Source of the DNA: Agaricus subrufescens
Lineage: Eukaryota; Basidiomycota; Agaricomycetes; Agaricales; Agaricaceae
Direction: 5' to 3'
NCBI GenBank assembly: GCA_029945375.1
Contig: CM057069.1
Coordinates: forward strand, 1,488,001 to 1,552,000
DNA: 64,000 bases
Both the position numbers and the translations under genes were made by a program. The stretch's first letter is position 1; the number at the start of each line of letters is the position of its first letter. Below are positions 11,479 through 56,584 of this stretch, in pieces. A model generated the notes under the pieces. That model worked only from the letters and a program-made list of their open reading frames with translations, had not been told where the DNA came from and did no database searches.

Positions 11479-13105
11479 TTACCCTCCTTTCCTTGCCTTT
11501 TCTTTTCCTTTCTTAATTCTTGTATCACCGGCATCACTATCCGGCCGAAATATCTGGTTTATCTGGTATTTGAATCCTTCCTCTACAATTTCCCGACGGA
11601 GATTGCGCTTTATATCGGATTGAGGTAGAAGTGTCCGCTCGACAATTACAATCATTTCCGAGGTTGAAATTCGCTCGTGACGATAACGCCGTGAATAAAA
11701 CAGTTGAGTCCCGCGTAAAATCTCCTCTCTTAGTTTGTCGTGATCCATGGAGACCTTGTCGTTGCTAGGTGCAATGAACATCACAGGAGAAGGGCGTCCT
11801 TTGCCAACCACAATACACTCAGAGATAAAATCACCACATTCTTGCATTGCGTTATCCTCCATCTCCTTTGCGTTGAAAAATAAACCATTTTCTGATTCTA
11901 TCCAGTTCGCCATGTCGTCAGGGACAAGTTTAGATGAGGAGCTTGGGGGTTTGTCCCAAGGGGTCCAGAAAGAGCGAAGTTCCTGAGGTCCGGGAAAAAC
12001 AAACGTGGGCGAAGGTGTAGCTAATGAAAAGGTTGTTATTTTATAGCCAGCGTATCACAAATAAATGGTTACGTAGGTGATCTGAACTTTTGACATCTTT
12101 ACTACTTCCCGCAGATGAGGAGCTTGAGGGTTGGTTCCAAGGGGCTGAGGGAGGGAGCGGCACCTGACCATATATGACCGGAGGAGGTGTAGCTAATGAA
12201 AAAGTTGTGATTTTATAGCCAGGATATCACAAATAAATGGTTACATGGGTAATTTGAACCTTTACTACTTCCCGCGAATGAGGAGCTTGAGGGTTGGTTC
12301 CAAAGGGCTGAGGGAGGGAGCGGCACCTGACCATATTTGATCGGAGGAGGTGTAGCTAATGAAAAAGTTATTATTTTATAGCCAGGGTTTCACAAATAAA
12401 TGGTTACATGGGTGATTTGAACCTTTACTACTTCCAGCAGATGAGGAGCTTGAGGGTTGGTTCCAAGGAACCCGGGGAGGGAGCGTCACCTGAGATCTGG
12501 GAACAGCAAACATGGACGAAGGTGTAGCTAATGAAAAAGTTATTATTTTATAGCCAAGGTGTCACAAATAAACGGTTACGTAGGTGATCTGAACTTTTGA
12601 CACCTTGACTACCTCCCGCTGCTTGAAAACATGAACGGCATGTCACTCAGGATTCATGCACATACTTACTATTCAGTACATTCACCTGTTCCCGTTTCTT
12701 TATCTCAGCTGTTTCCCTCTTTCTGCGTAACTTGATTGTTGCTTGCCATTGAGCCAGGTCAATTTCAAGTGCTTCCTGTCTTTCTGGCGACAGTGTCGCA
12801 ATGTAGTGGGTCATTTCTCTTGCTTTGTTTCTAATCAGATATGCACTTTGTAGGAATAGATGAGCGATCATACACGAGCTGAATGGGACATGGAGCCTAT
12901 CAATGGGGGTTGACATCCCGTTGCAAGATATGGTGAAAATTTGGGGGTGAGGCAAGGTAGGCTCCTCCCCATCCCCCCACTGAGAGCCGCCCGCAAGCCA
13001 CGTGCCGCGATCCCAAACTTCGCTTGGCGAGCATCCGCGAAACTGACTCTTTGGCGCCTTGGCCCTGGAGGAAGCAAGGTAGTCGTGATCACCGCTTCGA
13101 TTCAT
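11479..13105 (-). CDS. fusion-like protein: repeated Pro/Ser exons plus adenylating-enzyme C-terminal domain
   Basis: Seven exons with an unbroken frame (495 residues): 12670-13105, 12580-12618, 12408-12527, 12245-12355, 12073-12192 and 11479-12020, with introns of 51-52 nt; the exon at 12073-12192 precedes the last, and the 12408 and 12245 exons are its repeats. (That makes six junction-defined coding pieces besides the short 12580-12618 exon being the second.) The final exon contains GLFFNAKEMEDN, ECIVVGKGRPSPVMFIAP and LLPQSDIKRNLRREIVEE, matching the C-terminal lid domain of ANL-type acyl/acetate adenylating enzymes, where a conserved Lys in the final segment contacts the adenylate. The large N-terminal adenylation domain is missing. 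Instead there are three near-identical Pro/Ser-rich exons (LPPSAPWNQPSSSSSAGSS and variants). Enzyme activity is therefore unlikely; a binding or regulatory role is guesswork. It is divergent from the NACHT gene (190 bp apart), and a decayed pair with the same arrangement lies at 9549-10059. Confidence 0.55.
12021..12618 (-). repeat. tandem exon-intron duplication, four ~162-172 bp units
   Basis: Each unit holds one exon of 111-120 nt and one intron of exactly 52 nt (12021-12072, 12193-12244, 12356-12407, 12528-12579). All donors are GTAACC and all acceptors follow TTCATTAG. All units use the same phase, so each duplication adds 37-40 residues in frame. The units differ by point changes and small in-frame losses. 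Confidence 0.85.
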
Positions 13106-13295: not shown

Positions 13296-15480
13296 ATGTC
13301 TATCCAAACAGTTCCAGGGTGGTACTCAGTATTTGGACCGAACAATTCAGCTCCAGGCATTCAACCTCCCTTAATTAGTTCTGCATTCAATTATGCCCAT
13401 GACTTCTCAATGTCCAACCCTGTATTTGCGGAGCAAGCGACCATCATATATAGTCAGGAACAGCCCTCGGGTATGAACACTCTATTTTTTTCTCATATTG
13501 CTGAAATAAGGATATGCAGATTACCAAGCGCTCTCTTGGCTTGGTACTCACACTCTTCGGATGGTTGAATTAAACTCGGCGGCACGCGAGCCTCCACCAC
13601 GTTGTTACCCTGGAACCCGAGAGTCATTTCAAAGCGAGTTTCAAGAATGGCTAGACCAGGCGAAAAACTCTCCTCAAAAAGTCGCTTGCCTCTACGGACC
13701 TGCAGGTGTTGGAAAATCAGCAATTGCGCAAAGCGTTGCTGAACGTGCACTGACAGATCGTAATTTATTAGGAGCTGCTGTTTTCCTTGATCAACCGTCA
13801 AGTCGGTCAGAAAAAGACGTCACTTTTGAGAATCTGTCACGATTGTGGTCGACCATCGCTTATCGTTTGGCTGTCAATTACCCCTCATATATGCTTCATA
13901 TTCGGAAAGTCATCGCACGTGACCCAAAAATAGTTGACCAGAGTATGGATCAACAGTTCTACTCAATGATCACGGAACCTTTCGGTGTTCAAGGATTACT
14001 CAATGACTCGCTGAACATTATCCCTATCTTTATCGATGGTTTGGATCAGTTGGGTAGTCCTAACCTCCAGGAGCAAACAATGCGTCTCATTCTGGAATTC
14101 GCTCGGACATACTCAAATGCATCGCTGGCCTGGATTATAACTTTTCGAGAAGAGACCTATCTTATGAGGAATATTTCCAATTATCTCGATAGCGAGGAGC
14201 TGATACGCCGTGTTCCGGTATCCATGCACTCCGCAGAAGCGAAAAAGGATGTCCAAGTTTTTATGACAAGCAAATTTCGCGAAATGCAGAGACGATATAG
14301 AATCATCAGTCCAATACCATGGCCAATCGAGGAGACTTTGATCCGTCTTCTTGTATCAGCCTCCGGCCTTTTCATTTTTGCTTCTGCAATTATTGTGTTC
14401 TGCGAGAATTGTAGTGTTGCAGACCCGGCATTTCAGTTGGACGCCCTTTTCTCGCTGATCACAAATGATCCGAATCACCCACAAGGCAATCCTCTGCAAC
14501 ACCCCCTTAACTCCGTTCATGTCATGTATCGGCGCATACTTGACGACGTACCTTTGGATATCTATGATCGTTATGTTCGCCGTATACTAGGATTTTTGCT
14601 TTTGCCAAACGGGTATGGTGTTTGGACCCCCGAATCTACGTCTTTCTGGGCCTTGTGCAATATACTCAACATCGATCAAAGAATCGCGTATGCTTGCCTC
14701 CGCAAGCTTACATCGGTTCTCGCCATCCCAACATTTGAGGACGCCAAACATACACCACTCCAATTCCATCACATGACACTTGCCAATTATCTCCTTGATA
14801 AAAATGTCTCTGGTAAATTCTATATCAATAAGACAAGCGTTGCAAATGACCTCCAGCGTTGTCACTCGCGTGCGCTGAAGCAAGCAAATAGTACTAAAGG
14901 TGACTCGTAACCGCAACCACTATCCAGAACGCAATTAACTTCTGTTTCTTCAGCTTTCCAGCTTCCTCGACCGTCTCGAATAAAATTGTCTTGGCCTTCA
15001 ACTTCAGAAGCCGAGGAATCGGAGTTTCGGATTGATTTTTGGGAAAATGCTCGGCGAATGTGTTTTCATTGTTCACCTTACCCGTTACCTTCTTCCACCT
15101 CAACGACTTCCCAAGCTCCACATTACGTTGAGATCATTTCCCAAGTTCATTTTCCTAATCTGGTCGATGGCTATGCCTTCCCAGAACTTCCCTACAAATT
15201 TATCACTTTCTTGGACTGGCTCCTGCAGCTACCCGACAAGAGCCTCGGAGCAACCAGTGATACTCAACTCAAAGAACACTTTGATCCTCTCATATCTCGC
15301 AAACGTGTATCCCTATACCCAGGGTCCGATATTTGGTCCAGGCTGGGCATATGCTTCAAGATTCAAATCGAACATTTCGACGATGGTGGTCGCATCACCA
15401 CCTTCAAATCTTATAAACCTGTCTCCCATCCATTGGGTCCTCCCGTGTGTAATTTGCCACTCATATTTTTCGTGAACTAA
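13296..15480 (+). CDS. NACHT-domain NLR-like protein
   Basis: Three exons: 13296-13470, 13520-14899 and 14954-15480 (693 residues, unbroken frame). The NACHT core begins after the PPPRCYPGTRESF linker seen in many Agaricomycete NLR-like proteins. Walker A is GPAGVGKSAIAQ; the Walker B region is IPIFIDGLDQLG; AWIITFREE matches the sensor-1 strand. A further helical region with LLLPNGYGVWTPES and a downstream exon follow; there are no ankyrin, WD40 or TPR repeats. Such proteins are NTP-driven switches linked to non-self recognition and programmed cell death in fungi. The N-terminal segment is short and has no recognised effector domain. The start is uncertain: 13296 is used, but ATG 13410 is also possible. 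Related to the NACHT gene at 51677-56584 and to the remnant at 9862. Confidence 0.8.
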
Positions 15481-47565: not shown

Positions 47566-50500
47566 ATGGCTAAACACCCTAAGGCCCCCATTACTGTTCT
47601 CAAAAAGGGTCTAGAGAAATTAAAACAGAAGATTCAGATCTGCAAGGTTGACCTCAAGGCTAGGCTTCAAAAGAAGGAAAAATTGGCAGTTGTTGATAAG
47701 GAATAGTTGGATAACAATGGAAATATCATTCAGGAGCAATGTGTTGTTGAGATTTTGGAAGCAGCATCTGATTATGAGTGAGAATATGAAGAACTTGATG
47801 AAAATGGCAAAGGAATTGTTCAACGTCTTCATAAACTGACTGGAGATCATGTTAGAATTATTGGTAACAAGAGAAAACATACAGATAATTTTTTGTTTCA
47901 AAGGCTATCATTTTCTAAACTTTGATTTACTAGGACCCAAAAATCTGTCAAAGCCAGAAAAATGTAGTAATATCAAGGAACCAGAAAATCCTCTCCTGAT
48001 TTCCATGAAAAAGAAGAATGCATCACTTGAGCAAAGAATTGAAATCCTTGATTGGCATCACAAAAATGGCAAAAATCAATCAAAAACTGCACATGAGTTC
48101 AAGAAAAAGTATTCCAATATGAGGCTTGGACAACCTCTTATCTCAGATTGGTTAAAAAATGAAGAGAAGTGGAGAGCTGATTGGGAAGTGGCTAGTGGGC
48201 AAGCTGCACACAAGGCAAAGCATATCTGACAAACTCAGCATCCAGAAATAACTGATATGCTTGATTTATGGATTCTCATGCTGATGGCTCAGAAAACCTG
48301 CAGCCACTTGTAATGGGAAAAGCTCAAAAGCCTTGTGCCTTTAGAAACAAGTCAGCTGCTCAGCTTGGTTTCTATTACTGGAACAATGCCAAAGCATGGA
48401 TGATGATGGATATATACCAGGAATGGCTAAATGACTGGGACCAGAAACTAGCTATTAATGGCTGCAAAATCCTTTTGATTGTTGATAATTTTTCTGGCCA
48501 TACGACTCCTCAAGGCCTGAAAAATATTGAAATGATCCATTTCAAACCAAACCTCACCTCATATGTACAACCAGCAGATCAAGGCATTATTTGTTGTTCT
48601 AAAGCCCATTACTGATCATGATACATCAAGAGAGCAATTTTACACTATGATTCTGGGACAACACCAGGCAAAATATACAACATTAATCAACTTGAGGCTA
48701 TGTGACTTGTGGATGCAGCCTGGAAAAAGGTTGACACAACAACAATTTGACACTGTTGGATCAAGGCTGGCATTCTCCCATCATCAATTATAAATGCCAC
48801 AGATGTTATCAGTCCTTCTCTCCCTGTCTTGTCACTTGTTCATATACCCAATCCTCAGACAGACCCAGTTTTGCAGGTGGAAAATCAACTTCAGGTTGTA
48901 CTCAATAACTTAGAAAGTACTGGATGCCTTCAACATGCAAATCAGATAGACATAGAGGGTCTTCTTACTCCAGCTGAAGAATCACTGATCTTTGACAATG
49001 CTACAGATCAGGACATATATGAGGCAGTCATAGCCTCACATAATGCTCTGGAAGATATATTAATCAATGGTGGGGATGATGACGCTAATGATGATTATGT
49101 ATCAGAGCCTTACCCCACTTACAGTGGGGGACAAAACCGTTCCAATGTTTTGTACCTTTGGAAAAAATGCTATATACCAGCACACATAAAATGTTTAAAA
49201 TCTTGAGGATATTTATGAGTATACCTTAGTTTCTAAGCTACCATTGTGTGATGTTATGTGACTGTACAGTTATTATTGGTCATTATATAATCCTTTTAAG
49301 TCAGAGCATCATTGGAACAGTTTTGTCCCTGTACATTGAAAATACAGAATTGGCTACTTATCAAGGCAGAAGATACTATTTTCTGGCTATCAAAGCTACA
49401 AATGGTAGATTTGGTATTGATCCCATCAATATCTGATCAAATGCTGATCAATATCAGATATCCATCTATATGCTACTATAAAGATTAGATACTTTGTTAA
49501 GTAGTAAATCTTTAATCTCTAGCTTATTATTACATTATCTTCAAGGCTTGTGATGTAATTTATATTAAAACAGTTATCTAAGTACAATAATATACTGGAT
49601 TATGTAATTTATGCCATTTAAAGACTTATTTGCTGACATAAATATGATCATCCTTAGGTAGAAATATACTTTCATCTATTTTTTGCACACAAACAACCTA
49701 CTTGCTGGAAAGCTGATTGTTCCAATTAATACTATAGATGTTGGTGCTTATGTAACAATCAATCAAAGAGCAAACAAAAGCTTTGACCTTCCTCCACAAG
49801 CCTGTATTTACATAAATATATAGTAGACTCTAGAGAGTATCTGTAAAAGTGCACCAGGGCTTGTTTCTGATGACTAATCAAGATACAAATAGGCTCAGAA
49901 TATTGAGAATAATAGATTATAATCATATGTAACTGAAAACAATATGCTGATGGAAGTGTAAGAGCTTTACAAGCAGAGGGTAAAAAGTGTTAGTGTGTAT
50001 AAATGAAAAAAATTGTACTGTAAGATTGCATAGAATGGGCAAGAGCTCAAATAACTACTAAACATGAAGTATTATTGAATGTTAGTCTTTTCAGATATAT
50101 TTTGGAATTTTCACATGATTCAATCCTAGAGTATTATAGGTAGAATATATCAAGTACAAGCTTAACAAATGTGATATAGCAGCAAATCAACTTTAAAATA
50201 GTATGGATTACCTAAAATTAGATATTGTTGAGTTTAACCAGCCTCTTAATATGATTTTTTCCAAAATACAGTAAATAAATATCAATAGTGAGGTAAAAGT
50301 TAATGAATTTCTACCTAATAGATTATTACATCTATAGAGCAGCATATAGATGGATTCTGATATCATATCAGCAGCATTTGATCAGATATTGATGGCATCA
50401 ATACCAAATCTACCATTTGTAGCTTTGATAGCCAGAAAATAGTATCCTCTGCCTTGATAAGTAGCCAATTCTGTATTTTCAATGTACAGGGACAAAACTG

Positions 50501-50876
50501 TTCCAATGATGCTCTGACTTAAAAGGATTATATAATGACCAATAATAACTGTACAGCCACATAACATCACACAATAGTAGCTTAGAAACTAAGGTATACT
50601 CATAAATATCCTCAAGATTTTAAACATTTTATGTATGCTGGTATATAGCATTCTTTCCAAAGGTACAAAACATTGGAACGGTTTTGTCCCCCACTGTATA
50701 AAGAGGTTCTTGCAGCTATTTCAACTGTACAGAGGCACATAGACTTAGATTCTGATCTATGTGCACAAAAATTGGACTCCATGTTGGATTCATTTAGATA
50801 CAATCTCCATAGAGAACACTCAAAATCTTTGGAACCTACACTGGTTACAAATTATTTTTGTTGTATTAGTTCCTGA
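47566..50876 (+). pseudogene. degraded pogo/Tigger-type transposase
   Basis: From ATG 47566 the frame has in-frame stops at about 47704 and 47779 and frame changes later. Pieces match the family in order: a basic coiled N-terminal region, the helix-turn-helix part SLEQRIEILDWHHKNGKNQS and QPLISDWLKNEEKWR (48020-48180), then DDE_1 blocks AQKPCAFRNKSAAQLGFYY, LLIVDNFSGH (second catalytic Asp) and YVQPADQGII (third Asp). The segment that normally holds the first catalytic Asp seems deleted around 48235-48270. The C-terminal frame is interrupted at 49121 by the nested element and resumes in the same frame at 50699, ending TGA at 50874-50876. No functional protein can be made. Confidence 0.85.
49122..50696. 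mobile_element. long-TIR TA-inserting element, copy 2 (complete, 1575 bp)
   Basis: Complete copy of the element at 46190, same end sequence at 49122 and inverted at 50696, with TA at 49120-49121 and 50697-50698. It sits inside the transposase gene. The two arms are very similar to each other over about 370 bp; a 62-codon open frame (MMLCGCTVIIGHYIILLSQS) recurs in three of the four arms of the two copies, which simply reflects arm similarity. Confidence 0.9.
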
Positions 50877-51676
50877 TGTCCCAATAAACCTTGAATGAAT
50901 TTTTCCCAATTTTTCCCAATTTTTCCTGTTATTTAGGGCCTATTTTTCACTCGTTTCTCTTAACCTATACCCCCTCATAACCCATAGCTCCAAGTGTGTC
51001 CCGAGGGGTATAGGTTAAGAAAGTGACAACTGTAGCAGCAAATCAACTTTAAAATGGTATGGATTACATAAACTTAGATACTTTTGAGTTCAACCAGCCT
51101 CTTAATATGAGTTTTGCCAAAATATAATAAATAAATATCAATAGTGAGGTAAAAGTTAATGAATTTCTACCTAATAGATTATTACATCTATAGAGCAGCA
51201 TATAGATGGATTCTGATATCATATCAGCAGCATTTGATCAGATATTGATGGGATCAATACCAAATCTACCATTTGTAGCTTTGATAGCCAAAAAATAGTA
51301 TCCTCTGCCTTGATAAGTAGCCAATTTTGTATTTTCAATGTACAGGGACAAAACTGTTCCAATGATGCTCTGACTTAAAAGTATTATATAATGACCAATA
51401 ATAACTGTACAGCCACATAACATCACACAATGGTAGCTTAGATACTAAGGTATATTAATAAATATCCTCAAGATTTTAAACATTTTATGTGCACTGGTAT
51501 ATAGCATTCTTTGCAAAGGTACAAAACATTGGAACAGTTTTGTTCCCCACTGTATGTACAACTTCAGTTGATTTCCTGGCCATTTACACAATTCATCATT
51601 TGTATACTATTCTTAGATTGCCCTCATCATGATGCCTTTGAAAATATCCTGTCTCCTTTCATAAACCTTGCTTCAG

Positions 51677-54600
51677 TCACCTGGTTCTAGTTACAATAAG
51701 TCTGCCCACATGCCTTATTTTTTTAGTATTAGTATTAAGGAACATAATCACCATGTACACTTGCTTACCCTCAGAATTGTGTGTTACTATTTCAATTGCT
51801 TGATTTTCTCTATTTTGCATTATTGTGTTGTATTTAGAAAAGATACAATATCTTTTCTCCTTTGCATCTCCTACTAAAAGAGCAACTTGGGCACTGGAAA
51901 CTGCTCCACAGATAAGCACTGGTAAATCTGGTGATTGTTGCAAAAACACTTTTGTTTGGTGATCAATAGGCTTGAGAAATGGAATGAAAAGATCATTCAC
52001 AATTTGCAGTTTACAATTTGAGTTACTCACATGCTAAACCAGGAATTGTAGAAGAGGTAATGGTCATTCACAGGACCCAGGTCACTAACAATTAGACTTA
52101 CAAGCTGATCAAAGAATTGTGGAAGAGAAATTGATGAGTCACAGATCTCAGGTCACCAACAGATAGACTTACACGCTGAGTCAAGAATTGTGAAAGAGGA
52201 AATAATCAGTCACAGACTCCAGGTCACTGATAGATGGACTTACATGCTGATCCAGGGATTGAGGAAGAGGAAATGATTAGTCACAGACTCCAACCCACCA
52301 ACAAATGGGCTTACAGCCTGATCAAGGAATTGTGGAAGAAGAAATGGTCAGTCACAGACCTCAGGTCACCAACAGATGGACCTACATGCTGACCCAGGAA
52401 TTGTGGAAGAGGAATAATCAGTCACAGACCCCCAGGTCACCAACAGATGGACTTACATACTGATCCAGGAGTTGTGGAAAAGGAAATGATGAGTTATGAG
52501 CCCCAGGTCACTAACAAATGGACTTACATGCTGATCCAGGAATTGTGGAAGAGGAAATGATTAGTCACAAATGTTAGATCACCAACAGATGGACTTACAT
52601 GCTGATCCAGGAATTGTGAAAGAGTAAATGATCAGTCACAGATCCCAGATCACCAAGAGATGGACTTACACGCTATTCCAGGAATTGTGAAAGAGGAACT
52701 GATCAGTCACAGACCTTAGGTCATCAACAGATGGACTTACATGATGATCCAGGAGCTGTGGACAAGAAAATAATTAGTTACAGATCCCAGGTCTCCAACA
52801 CTTAGACTTACAGGCTGATCCAGGAATTGGGGAAACAGAAATGATCAGTCACAGGCCCCAGTTCACCAACAGATGGACCTACATACTGATCCAGGAATTG
52901 GAAAAGAGGGAGTGATCAGTCTTGGACCCCAGGTCACCAACAGGTGGACTTACAGCCTGATCTGAAAACTGTGGACAAGGAAATGATCAGTCATGGACCC
53001 CAGGTTACCAACAGATGGACTTACAGCCTGTTCCAAGAACTATGGACAAGGAACTGATCAATCATAAACCCCAGGTCACCAGTAGATGGACTTACAGGCT
53101 GATTCAGGAATTGTGAAAGAGGAAATGATTAGTCACAAACACCAGGTCACCAACAGATGGACTTACAGCCTGATCCAGGAATTGTGAAAGAGGAGATGAT
53201 TAGTCATAGACCCTAGGTCTCCAACAGATGGACTTACAGCCTGTTCCACAACCTGTGGACAAGGAATTGATCAGTCATAGACTCAGGCCATCAACAAATG
53301 GACTTACATGCTGATCCAGGAATTGTGAAAGAGAAACTAATCAGTCACAGACCCCAGGTCACCAACAAATAGACTTACATGCTGATCCAGGAATTGTGAA
53401 AGCACAAATGATCAGTCACAGGCCCCAGGTCACCAACAGATCAACTTACAGCCTGATCCAACAATTGTGGACAAGGAAATGTCAGTCACAGACCCCAGGT
53501 CACCAACAGATGGACTTACATCCTGATCCAGGAATTATGGAAGAGGAAATGATCAGTCACAAACCCCAGGTCACCAATAGATGAACTTACAGGCTTATAC
53601 AGGAATTGTGGAAGAGGAAATGGTTAGTCACAGACTCCAGGTCACCCACAAATGGACTTACAGACTGATTCAGGAATCATGGAAGAGAAAATGATCAGTC
53701 ATAGACCCCAGGTCACCAACAGATGGACTTACAGGCTGATTCAGGAATTGTAGAAGAGGAAATAATCAGTCACAGATCCCAGGTCACCAATAGATAGACT
53801 TACAGCCTAATCCCAGAATTGTGGAAGAAGAAATGATTAGTCACAGACCCCAGATTACCAACAGATGGACTTACACCCTAATCCAAGAATTGTGAAAGAG
53901 GAAATTATCAGTCACAGACCCCAGGTCACCAATAATGGACTTACAGGCTGATCCAGGAGTTGTGGAAGAGGAAATGATCAGTCACAGCCCCCAGATTACC
54001 AACAGATGAACTTACACGCTGATTCAGGAATTGTAAAAGAGGAACTGATCAGTCACAAAATGCAGGTCACCAACAGATGGACTTACAGGCTAATCCAGGA
54101 ATTGTGGAAGAGGAAATGGTTAGTCACAGACTGCAGGTCACCAACAGATGGACTTACAGGCTGATTCAGGAATTGTGGAAGAGAGGAAATGATCAGTCAC
54201 AGACCCCCGGGCCACCAACAGATGAACTTACATCCTGATCCAGGAATTGTGGAAGAGGACATGGTCAGTTACACACCGCACCTAAGCGACTGATGTACTT
54301 ACCTCTTCAATCACGTAATTTTCATTATCGTCATAGTCAACGTCCAGATCATTGAAATGGACTTTCTCAAACATGTCAACATTACCAGCCCTGTGTGGAT
54401 ATTCCTGTAATAGTAATGAGAGTGCGAAATATTTGATGTTATGTATGATATTACCACCCAAGATTCAAATGCTTGTTTAACGAATGAAAATAGGATCACA
54501 GGTCCATCCCATGGAGTGAAGGGACCATGGTTGTAGTTGCATAGACGACTCATGTTGATATTTTGTAAAGAGTTTAAAAACTCATCGTACTTTTGCTGCG

Positions 54601-56584
54601 ATCCCGACGAGACCCCTCCGTGAGGCTCATGGCTCTTCACTATCTGAGTCAGTAGTGTTCGACCCATGTCCGTGAGAATGCCTCTGGTGAATGCCGCAGT
54701 GTCTTTTTCTGGCATCCCTTGTAACTCGTTTTGCAAAGAATCGGTACCAGAAGCTGAACGCGAGTATGAGCATCCCTCAAACATGATGACGAATACACTC
54801 AAACATACCAACATTCTCTCCAAAATGTTTATACCACAGGTTGAGATAGCCCGATAGGACATCGATCTCCACATCATGAACATCAATATAAAACTCTCCC
54901 GATCTTTGCGCATCCGTCAAGTAGTCGGGGAAAGAAGCATGTAAGAAGGTCAACGGTGTCGTGTGTGCTTCTTCCCAAGGCGGTATCTTAAGCGTTGATA
55001 TGCATTTTGTGAGAGCAGGATAGACCCGATGAAGCTCTAGCTGGAGAATCGTGGCCATGCCTCTGAGAGTTCTGGACTTTGACGAAGCCCGAAGCCCAGA
55101 AGCAGTGCTGCTGCGGAATAACAATGTCGCCCCGAGCAAGAGTTTTGTTATGTTTAACAATTCCGGTGGGATTCTCAAGAGAATTTCCCTATACAAGTTA
55201 TCGAGGTTCTTGAAAGGCTGCTCCGCGCTCGAAACACTCTTCGAACCATCAATAGCGGATAAGACACGATCGAGTCGTGAGATAGGATTAGAGTGATCAG
55301 GATCCTTGATGAAACGAATTGCGGTTTGCGCAAAAATGAAGTGGCCAGAGGAAGCCTCCGCGAGTTTGGCGAGGACAGTGTTTCCAGGCCAATCATCTGG
55401 GGTAGGGCCAGGAAACTCGTCTCGTATGGTGCGGAAGCTATCAGCCAAGAAGCGTCGAACGTCGTCCCGAGCATCTAGGGCGTTGATGAAGATAGAGTGC
55501 GACTCAAACCGGCCTTGTATGGAGGCCTCTTTGAACGTGTTGGTTACATGGAGCTCCGGACGACTCGCGATAATCCACGCGAGGGGCTTATCACGATGCT
55601 CCCGTGTAAACTTGCTGATGATTCGGATAATGTCCCGTTGGGGGCCCACACCCTCGACCTCGTCAAGTCCATCCAGCAAGATAGCCATGGGTAGCCCACC
55701 CGTTCCAATCTTCCTCACTACGAATGGCTCGATGATGAAGGCTCGAAATTGAGCCTCCATGTTTTTGGTGAGGATGCTGGGGTTGATAGTAATTCGATCG
55801 ACGATATAGTCGCGGTAGGCCTCAATACGATGAGCGAGTTGATTCGCGATGGTAACAAAGATACGGTTTGGGTCATTACAGTTATTTGGTCGCGAAATAA
55901 ATACAGAAACGACGCGATCCCCGATTTTTTCCGCAAAGGTTTGCATGATGGCAGATTTGCCGACCCCAGCAGGTCCAGTCAGCAGGAAAAGGGAATTCAA
56001 GCGGGAGATATCATCGAACCAGGTAAGGAGTAATTCGAGAATCGCTTCACGTGTACCGGGATGACACCTGGGCGGGTATTGGCGTGAAGAATCATCATGG
56101 GCTGCACCATCGATGATATACTTTAAGATCAATCCCATAACTAGGGATAAGACAAGACGAATAAGTAGGGTTCTCGAATAGATGACGCAGCTATCCTCAC
56201 CATAGCGCATTTTATCCTCTCCTTGAGTTTCCACCATGACGGGATTGTTCAAAACAAAGTGGTGAGCTCCAGACAAGAAACCACTAGAGCCAGAGGACAC
56301 TGCGACAATCATGAGCAGCTGACTATTGTGAAAGCACACATAGAAACGCACCTTGTATGTGCGGGGAAGCCATGGCGAGACCTGGGGAAACGGATTGGGG
56401 GGCCACGTCAGTTGTAAACATCCGCCGAAGGGCCTGAAGAGGGCCTGATGCGACGATAAGCTATGACTGTACTCTCAAGCACAGGGTGCATAAGCATACC
56501 AGAGGTGGCCGGTCCAGACATAGCAGGGTTTCCGGACCTAGATCGATCATCCGTGTCGTCGATAGGCTTGGAGAAAAGTGGCAT
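51677..56584 (-). CDS. NACHT-domain NLR-like protein with a 3' intron array
   Basis: Exons 56500-56584, 56352-56381, 56201-56299, 54797-56140, 54458-54753 and 54303-54404 join in phase; ATG at 56584. The core has PPRCHPGTREAILE, Walker A GPAGVGKSAIMQ, Walker B MAILLDGLDEVEG and AWIIASRPELHV. The C-terminal half contains HASFPDYLTDAQRSGEFYID, shared with other Agaricomycete NACHT proteins. No repeat domain follows. Exon 6 ends ENYVIEE with a GTAAGT donor, after which 33 successive intron-like units reach an acceptor at 51971; the open exon 51677-51970 (PIDHQTKVFLQQSPDLPVL..., AT-rich, no known domain) continues in phase 0. If the array is removed as one intron the protein has ~749 residues; if every 3-nt block is kept, 32 more. 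NLR-type signal NTPase, probably non-self recognition. Confidence 0.7.
52024..54302 (-). repeat. tandem intron array with 3-nt micro-exons (~71 bp units)
   Basis: On the minus strand each unit starts GTAAGTCCATCTGTTGGTG, has a branch-like GTGACTGATCA or GTGACTAATCA, a pyrimidine run TTTCCTCTTCCAC, and ends TTCCTGGATCAG. Three bases later the next donor begins. I count 32 three-base blocks, all of the form NNT (CAT 8, GCT 7, CCT 7, CGT 3, TAT 2, GAT 2, and CTT, TCT, GGT once each). All 33 donors start GT; 31 of 32 internal acceptors end AG (the one near 52743 reads AT). Mean spacing is about 71 bp. Confidence 0.9.

Follow-up and report, generated by a model that had tools for sequence, protein, structure and literature searches.

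The closest described systems are found in truffles. The NACHT-ANK (nank) genes of Tuber melanosporum are described, in passages of PMC4986451, PMC3689799 and PMC10197012 that cite Iotti et al. 2012, as diversifying through alternatively spliced microexons of codon size (3 bp), of which there are multiple or tens. A passage of PMC4986451 also presents the HNWD/het-D/het-R NLRs of Podospora and the conserved WD, ANK and TPR repeats of fungal NLRs as tandem units in concerted evolution. Very short exons in filamentous fungi appear in excerpts on Trichoderma Xlr2 (PMC11121469) and on Fusarium CYP621A, which has a one-nucleotide exon (PMC12940212); these are single short exons, and the excerpts mention no arrays, whereas the gene described below carries one. 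The word 'microexon' in the relevant passages of two basidiomycete papers (PMC4014442, PMC3990503) denotes a read-mapper setting only. Among the titles and abstract openings listed in searches of the open full-text literature, no report of an array of codon-sized microexons in a basidiomycete was found.

We analysed a stretch of 64,000 nucleotides from Agaricus subrufescens, hereafter the window. Its minus strand contains an NLR gene with the following features, in which the one-codon exons are predicted:

54809..56312, minus strand: NLR exon 1, NPHP3_N/NACHT ATPase (open frame and Pfam)
54455..54753, minus strand: NLR exon 2 (SGTDSLQ...FESWV), frame kept on joining, similar exon in sister genes
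54303..54404, minus strand: NLR exon 3 (EYPHRAGN...NYVIEE), 34 codons, phase 0 at both ends
51971..54302, minus strand: array of 33 introns and 32 one-codon exons (DPPRPGAPSPDAHHAAPAAYPHRHHYHAHRLH)
52741..52755, minus strand: unit with lost acceptor AG, microexon CAT at 52743-52741
51971..52030, minus strand: last intron, no copy of the repeat unit
51677..51970, minus strand: NLR exon 4 (PIDHQTKVFLQQSPDLPVLICG...RTR*), 98 codons including the stop, one open frame

The ordinary introns beside the array are 50 and 55 nt long, the latter separating exons 1 and 2, and exons 56312-54809, 54753-54455 and 54404-54303 join into 635 residues in one frame with no stop; the putative start codon is the first ATG, taken at 56312. 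Exon 4 has a possible shorter form that ends at a GTAAGC donor. Exon 1 (54809..56312) matched NPHP3_N above the Pfam cut-off (2.6e-13) and NACHT just under it (6.3e-6, 26.6 bits; cut-off 26.7), and the gene carries the NACHT or NB-ARC type P-loop ATPase of fungal NLR (STAND) proteins. Neither ankyrin repeats nor a C-terminal WD or TPR repeat domain appeared among the Pfam matches of the window gene to E 1. For the C-terminal module, a protein search of 16 candidates gave no match at E up to 10, and in a further protein search the query itself was the sole match. The NLR has 980 homologs, and most of the best 120 have NACHT and/or NPHP3_N domains. Among the matches listed, the closest are metagenome proteins, the first nine of which share 59-76% identity, and an Agaricus bisporus protein at 58% identity; more come from Agaricus, Macrolepiota and Leucoagaricus, so that protein similarity points to an Agaricaceae-like mushroom. 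Elsewhere in the window, a second NPHP3_N/NACHT gene lies at 13561-14910 (plus strand), with a 163-bp tandem repeat before it at 12013-12598. Just downstream of the array, at 48500-51600, we noticed by eye several repeat copies in both orientations, with ends like CAGTGGGGAACAAAACTGTTCCAATG, resembling a small DNA transposon. A viral contig scan gave 3 repeats, which were unrelated to the array.

The window gene resembles the truffle nank genes, as far as the passages describe them, in belonging to an expanded fungal NACHT family, in having tens of codon-sized, in-frame microexons (32 in the window, at the sequence level) and in the receptor diversification proposed, here from sequence alone. 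The truffle genes belong to an ascomycete, carry ANK repeats and are reported to be alternatively spliced, whereas the window gene belongs to a basidiomycete, has no ANK in Pfam and holds its array in the C-terminal part, in the place of an ordinary intron. The published tens of codon-sized microexons, as those passages report them, are also a caveat to the suggestion in the original prediction that this array, if spliced unit by unit, would be the densest intron run. The Podospora HNWD genes, in the passage cited, share with the array tandem units, concerted evolution, few hypervariable positions and a location in the C-terminal part of an NLR, but their units are protein repeats of 33-43 residues, whereas the present unit combines an intron with a single codon. 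PRDM9-type zinc-finger minisatellites likewise have near-identical units in which a few contact codons are saturated with change; those units are coding and lack introns, unlike the intron and codon of the present array. Introners and intron gain by tandem duplication also produce many copies of one intron sequence. Introners are spread over unrelated genes, whereas here, among the matches listed, intron copies fall in or beside NLR arrays, head-to-tail at one junction in one gene family; stray single copies may exist elsewhere.

The 33 intron-like stretches and 32 three-base blocks predicted for this gene were found on the minus strand at 54302-51971. The tandem unit, put at ~71 bp in the prediction, measured 71 bp (range 70-74), with 31.7 copies and 80% matches in TRF, and unit introns were mostly 68-69 nt. 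A recount agreed that 32/32 blocks are NNT and that 0 are stops. Two details required correction. The 33 introns are consecutive, but the last of them (52030-51971) is not a unit copy; and the units had been described as complete introns ending in CAG, which is true of 25 of the 32 acceptors (the others being 5 TAG, 1 AAG and 1 CAT), so that AG is present in 31/32 and lost in one. In 31/31 window units with AG, the branch-like CT(G/A)AY box has retained both its T and its A. In the unit without AG, a CAG just upstream would give a 15-nt in-frame exon at 52755-52741 (CTC CTG GAT CAT CAT). If the array were retained in the transcript of the window gene, a stop would be met within the first few codons.

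The same layout recurs across the genome (44.65 Mb in 44 contigs searched). Two consecutive AG-NNT-GTAAGT joints occurred 262 times (112 forward and 150 reverse), and the reversed control pattern had 0 matches genome-wide; three joints with a non-T third base gave 15 matches, all within arrays of the same family, and 0 control matches. Arrays were parsed at 25 loci including the window. About 19 of these are distinct, differing in unit sequences, unit numbers and codons, and six are near-identical copies (C25_66, C25_132, C27_64, C6_2315, C6_2401 and C25_0) that may be alleles, duplications or assembly duplicates. Genome searches found the downstream exon at 27 places, two with an in-frame stop, and the upstream exon (exon 3) at 15 places, one with a stop. 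Among 23 array loci tested, 19 had both flanking exons and three had one (upstream only at C27_64 and C8_1407, downstream only at C8_1390), while C25_129 had neither within the stretch examined. The flanking exons are in phase 0 on both sides, as had been claimed, with the same boundaries in sister genes, and in the window the array is joined in frame to the NACHT exons beside which it had been placed.

Some members of the family depart from the regular layout (C4_622, C27_64 and parts of C4_924, C6_2315 and C6_2805), through either decay or faulty assembly. The locus at C6:2401k (L093, C6:2399800-2402100) is an exact copy of part of that at C6:1844k (L070, C6:1842800-1846500), 556 kb away on the same contig, and reflects either a recent duplication or an assembly duplicate. 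The array of L075 (C8:1406000-1408900) seems intact, but it is followed by unrelated sequence in which the usual downstream exon was not found. In L090 (C13:1365k) and L095 (C1:5834k) the downstream exon contains an in-frame TAA and hardly any array can be recognised in the stretch examined; both are probably decayed family members.

Splice signals are constrained across the family. At the five core splice positions (A-2, G-1, G+1, T+2 and G+5), 5 departures were counted against 115 expected from the divergence of intron bodies, in 282 of 299 joints from 18 arrays (the remaining 17 differed in alignment length and were set aside); the joints belong to related units and are not independent trials, although the contrast is large. 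In the window array alone there was 1 departure against 18 expected at the intron-body rate. When joints were located via the intron body alone, AG, three bases and GT were present in 328/358 (22 arrays, near-identical copies included). The remaining 30 include several alignment offsets; scrambled stretches and one two-base exon in C4_924 are among the real exceptions. Joints of exact length contained four true cases of lost AG. Three of the four have a replacement AG 12, 9 and 9 nt upstream, in frame, so that the exon would gain whole codons and no stop. In the fourth case, C6_2805, there is no AG within 40 nt, and this gene has an in-frame stop in its upstream exon.

Relatives of the gene bear on where the array came from. 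By eye, the array junction holds a single ordinary phase-0 intron in L088 and L089, two distant array-less relatives, and two introns around a nine-base exon in L087 (the upstream exon of L087-L089 has diverged beyond the reach of the tblastn test); in L084 there are four one-codon exons. Also by eye, 6/8 Agaricus-family proteins, and 4/120 homologs in a motif check, read through the junction without any added peptide. P0010 (var. burnettii), the nearest A. bisporus protein, does have by eye ~15 additional residues at the array's place that other A. bisporus relatives lack; these could represent either a peptide or a retained intron. An ordinary intron is thus the most likely origin of the array.

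The array probably forms a hypervariable C-terminal segment of a mushroom NACHT receptor (NLR), encoded as a run of translated one-codon exons. A phase-0 intron at an exon junction would have been tandemly duplicated along with three exon bases. Every copy would retain its donor, branch site and acceptor and be spliced separately by intron definition, the introns leaving in succession, and each spliced unit would insert a single residue between the two conserved exons. As nearly all exons are of three bases and every junction is in phase 0, recombination between units would be frame-safe, and recombination anywhere in an intron would add, remove or swap whole codons with the frame intact. Such exchange would homogenise introns and not codons. 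With the introns as recombination substrate, the segment would thus evolve by whole codons, and the much faster change of codons than of neutral sequence between sister genes may reflect diversifying selection on a segment used in recognition. The resulting segment would most likely comprise 4 to 32 residues (the other 17 arrays counted have 4 to 25 intact units, vs 32 in the window) in the C-terminal part, the usual site of repeat domains in fungal NLRs. Splicing, its order, translation and a role in nonself recognition are what we infer, the last from the gene family. The unit-by-unit splicing and 32-residue variable peptide in the NLR tail that the original prediction entertained are favoured by the comparative evidence, namely splice constraint and the behaviour of the first two codon bases (NN). 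Several observations weigh against this explanation, among them the following: a constraint beyond the protein acts at the third base, which is T in 32/32 window blocks; removal of the array as one intron would likewise preserve the frame; and codons are not fast in every comparison (C13_1375/C25_132; C9_1369/C9_1417).

The tempo of codon change was examined between sister genes. C6_2196 and C6_2213 lie 17 kb from each other, and their codon strings are unrelated (LCS 8, shuffled 8.7) despite an exon dS of 0.13 and an ordinary intron that differs at 3/50 sites. In the comparison of codon strings, which covered ten pairs, six sister pairs besides this one shared little or no order; C9_1369 and C9_1417 kept some (LCS 9, shuffled 6.9, p 0.035), and three pairs with nearly identical flanks retained their strings (15/15, 17/20 and 14/17). 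C13_1375 and C25_132 kept 15/15 codons, with 0/30 NN changes vs 41 intron changes. The near-identical copies C1_5904 and C25_66 differ by the replacement of three codons, and a repeated TAT-ATG run and a hybrid intron mark the junction; codon replacement with a hybrid intron, that is, with its breakpoint in the intron, is what frame-safe recombination within introns would leave. C6_2213 and C6_2315 differ by one unit, although this pair includes a scrambled unit that an assembly error may have produced. Constraint on the gene holds on both sides of the array: purifying selection acts on the downstream exon, with a median dN/dS of 0.45 (134/136 pairs usable, 4 above 1). The medians were 0.46 for the upstream exon (80/91 pairs usable, 3 above 1) and 0.45 for the three exons joined (range 0.33-0.91, 69/78 pairs usable).

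Near-identical splice sites and uniform phase 0 also mean that any donor might pair with any later acceptor. Microexons would then be skipped randomly or under control, and one gene would yield very many in-frame peptides, a reading that we hold to be possible but tentative. All window junctions are in phase 0, with exons of 3 (or 12, 15) nt and near-identical sites, and the passages on truffle NACHT-ANK genes report alternative splicing of codon-sized microexons. However, skipping would weaken selection on single codons, and codon strings are for the most part preserved between copies whose flanks are nearly identical. More doubtful is a combined version, in which the array would be a splicing-based diversity generator (33 donors by later acceptors) whose codons are also rewritten in the germ line by intron recombination, giving somatic and germ-line variation independently of the truffle case.

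The proposal of translated one-codon exons was also compared with the behaviour of the three-base blocks within arrays, which vary as codons would and unlike the intron. Both NN columns were more variable than every intron column compared in 18/22 arrays, or 15/18 without near-identical copies, the exceptions being C6_2213, C9_1417, C6_2315 and the decayed C4_622. Among 156 pairs of units with identical introns (17 arrays compared), NN differed in 119 and both bases in 67 (76% and 43%); the pairs come from nine arrays, none of them from the window array, and mostly from C4_924, C8_1363, C9_1417 and C6_2196. Without the partly scrambled C4_924, NN differed in 90/110. In simulations with uniform rates, 2.2% of such pairs differed in NN and 0% in both bases, and with unit turnover alone a codon rate ~300 times the intron rate was needed (73% and 33%). 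Exchange confined to introns gave 56% and 15% at equal rates, so that the decoupling of codons from introns by itself needs no fast codon change, and 80% and 45% (69 pairs) with a tenfold codon rate. Simple unit-by-unit duplication that carries codons along is not the whole story, since identical neighbouring codons were not enriched (31 vs 33.3 expected) and codon identity tracked intron similarity at p < 0.05 in 4/17 arrays only, where nominal p values overstate significance because units share ancestry.

Stops were absent from 306 codons in 18 arrays (7 rows were dropped as ordinary or divergent introns), vs 2.1 expected, which is a weak test. The third bases of these codons were T 266, A 32, G 7 and C 1. 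At position -1 a match to U1 prefers G, not T. As T-to-C at the third base would be synonymous and C was present in 1/306, the splicing machinery or another constraint must see this base. In L077 and L085 (C9:1369k and C9:1417k), many codons end in A with A or G as second base (CGA, CAA, GGA, GAA and AAA), and their first base is never T, which would make a stop.

A targeted mutational process, and not selection on point mutations, might diversify the codon positions, and we judge this unlikely. The ~300-fold rate needed without intron-only conversion to approach the observed decoupling would fit such a process, as would the lack of enrichment of adjacent identical codons and the Ts/Tv ratio of 285:800 at NN vs 579:826 in introns. 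On the other hand, intron-only exchange with a tenfold codon rate fits equally well, block copies hold their codons while introns change (C6_1844, by eye), and the unchanged NN of C13_1375 and C25_132 in the face of 41 intron changes disfavours constitutive NN hypermutation.

The array might instead be a single 2.33-kb intron that grew as a minisatellite and is removed in one step, with internal splice signals as fossils. The frame stays intact when the whole array is removed, and the array-less relatives have one ordinary intron at the junction (by eye), as this reading would have it. Nevertheless, we regard it as very unlikely: core splice sites are retained in nearly every unit, NN bases behave differently from the other unit positions, replacement acceptors keep the frame, and 2.33 kb is far above the lengths of the neighbouring introns. 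The original prediction had offered one 2.3-kb intron as a mere minisatellite as its second option, and the splice-site decay and unit-like NN that this entails are both contradicted. A pure minisatellite without a coding role, in which units would evolve alike and splice sites would be unconstrained, was likewise rejected. A collapsed or invented repeat produced by the assembly is highly improbable, for although contig C27 ends within an array and a few arrays look scrambled, the layout occurs at ~19 distinct loci with different units, numbers and codons, with both exons at 19/23.

To return to translated one-codon exons, codon-sized microexons in fungal receptors are already known from truffles, as the passages cited above describe; the phylum, architecture and evolutionary pattern seen here are new as far as searches of one open full-text library show. 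Gene predictors seldom call three-base exons. Given this, and given the early stop in a retained array, annotation of the C-terminal part of such genes is unlikely to be right. The array joins two questions, namely, how the spliceosome copes with successive exons of three bases and how fungal nonself receptors diversify without adaptive immunity. If transcripts confirm the proposed structure, codon-by-codon exon arrays in immune-type receptors would be no truffle oddity but would have arisen in a mushroom family of different architecture too.
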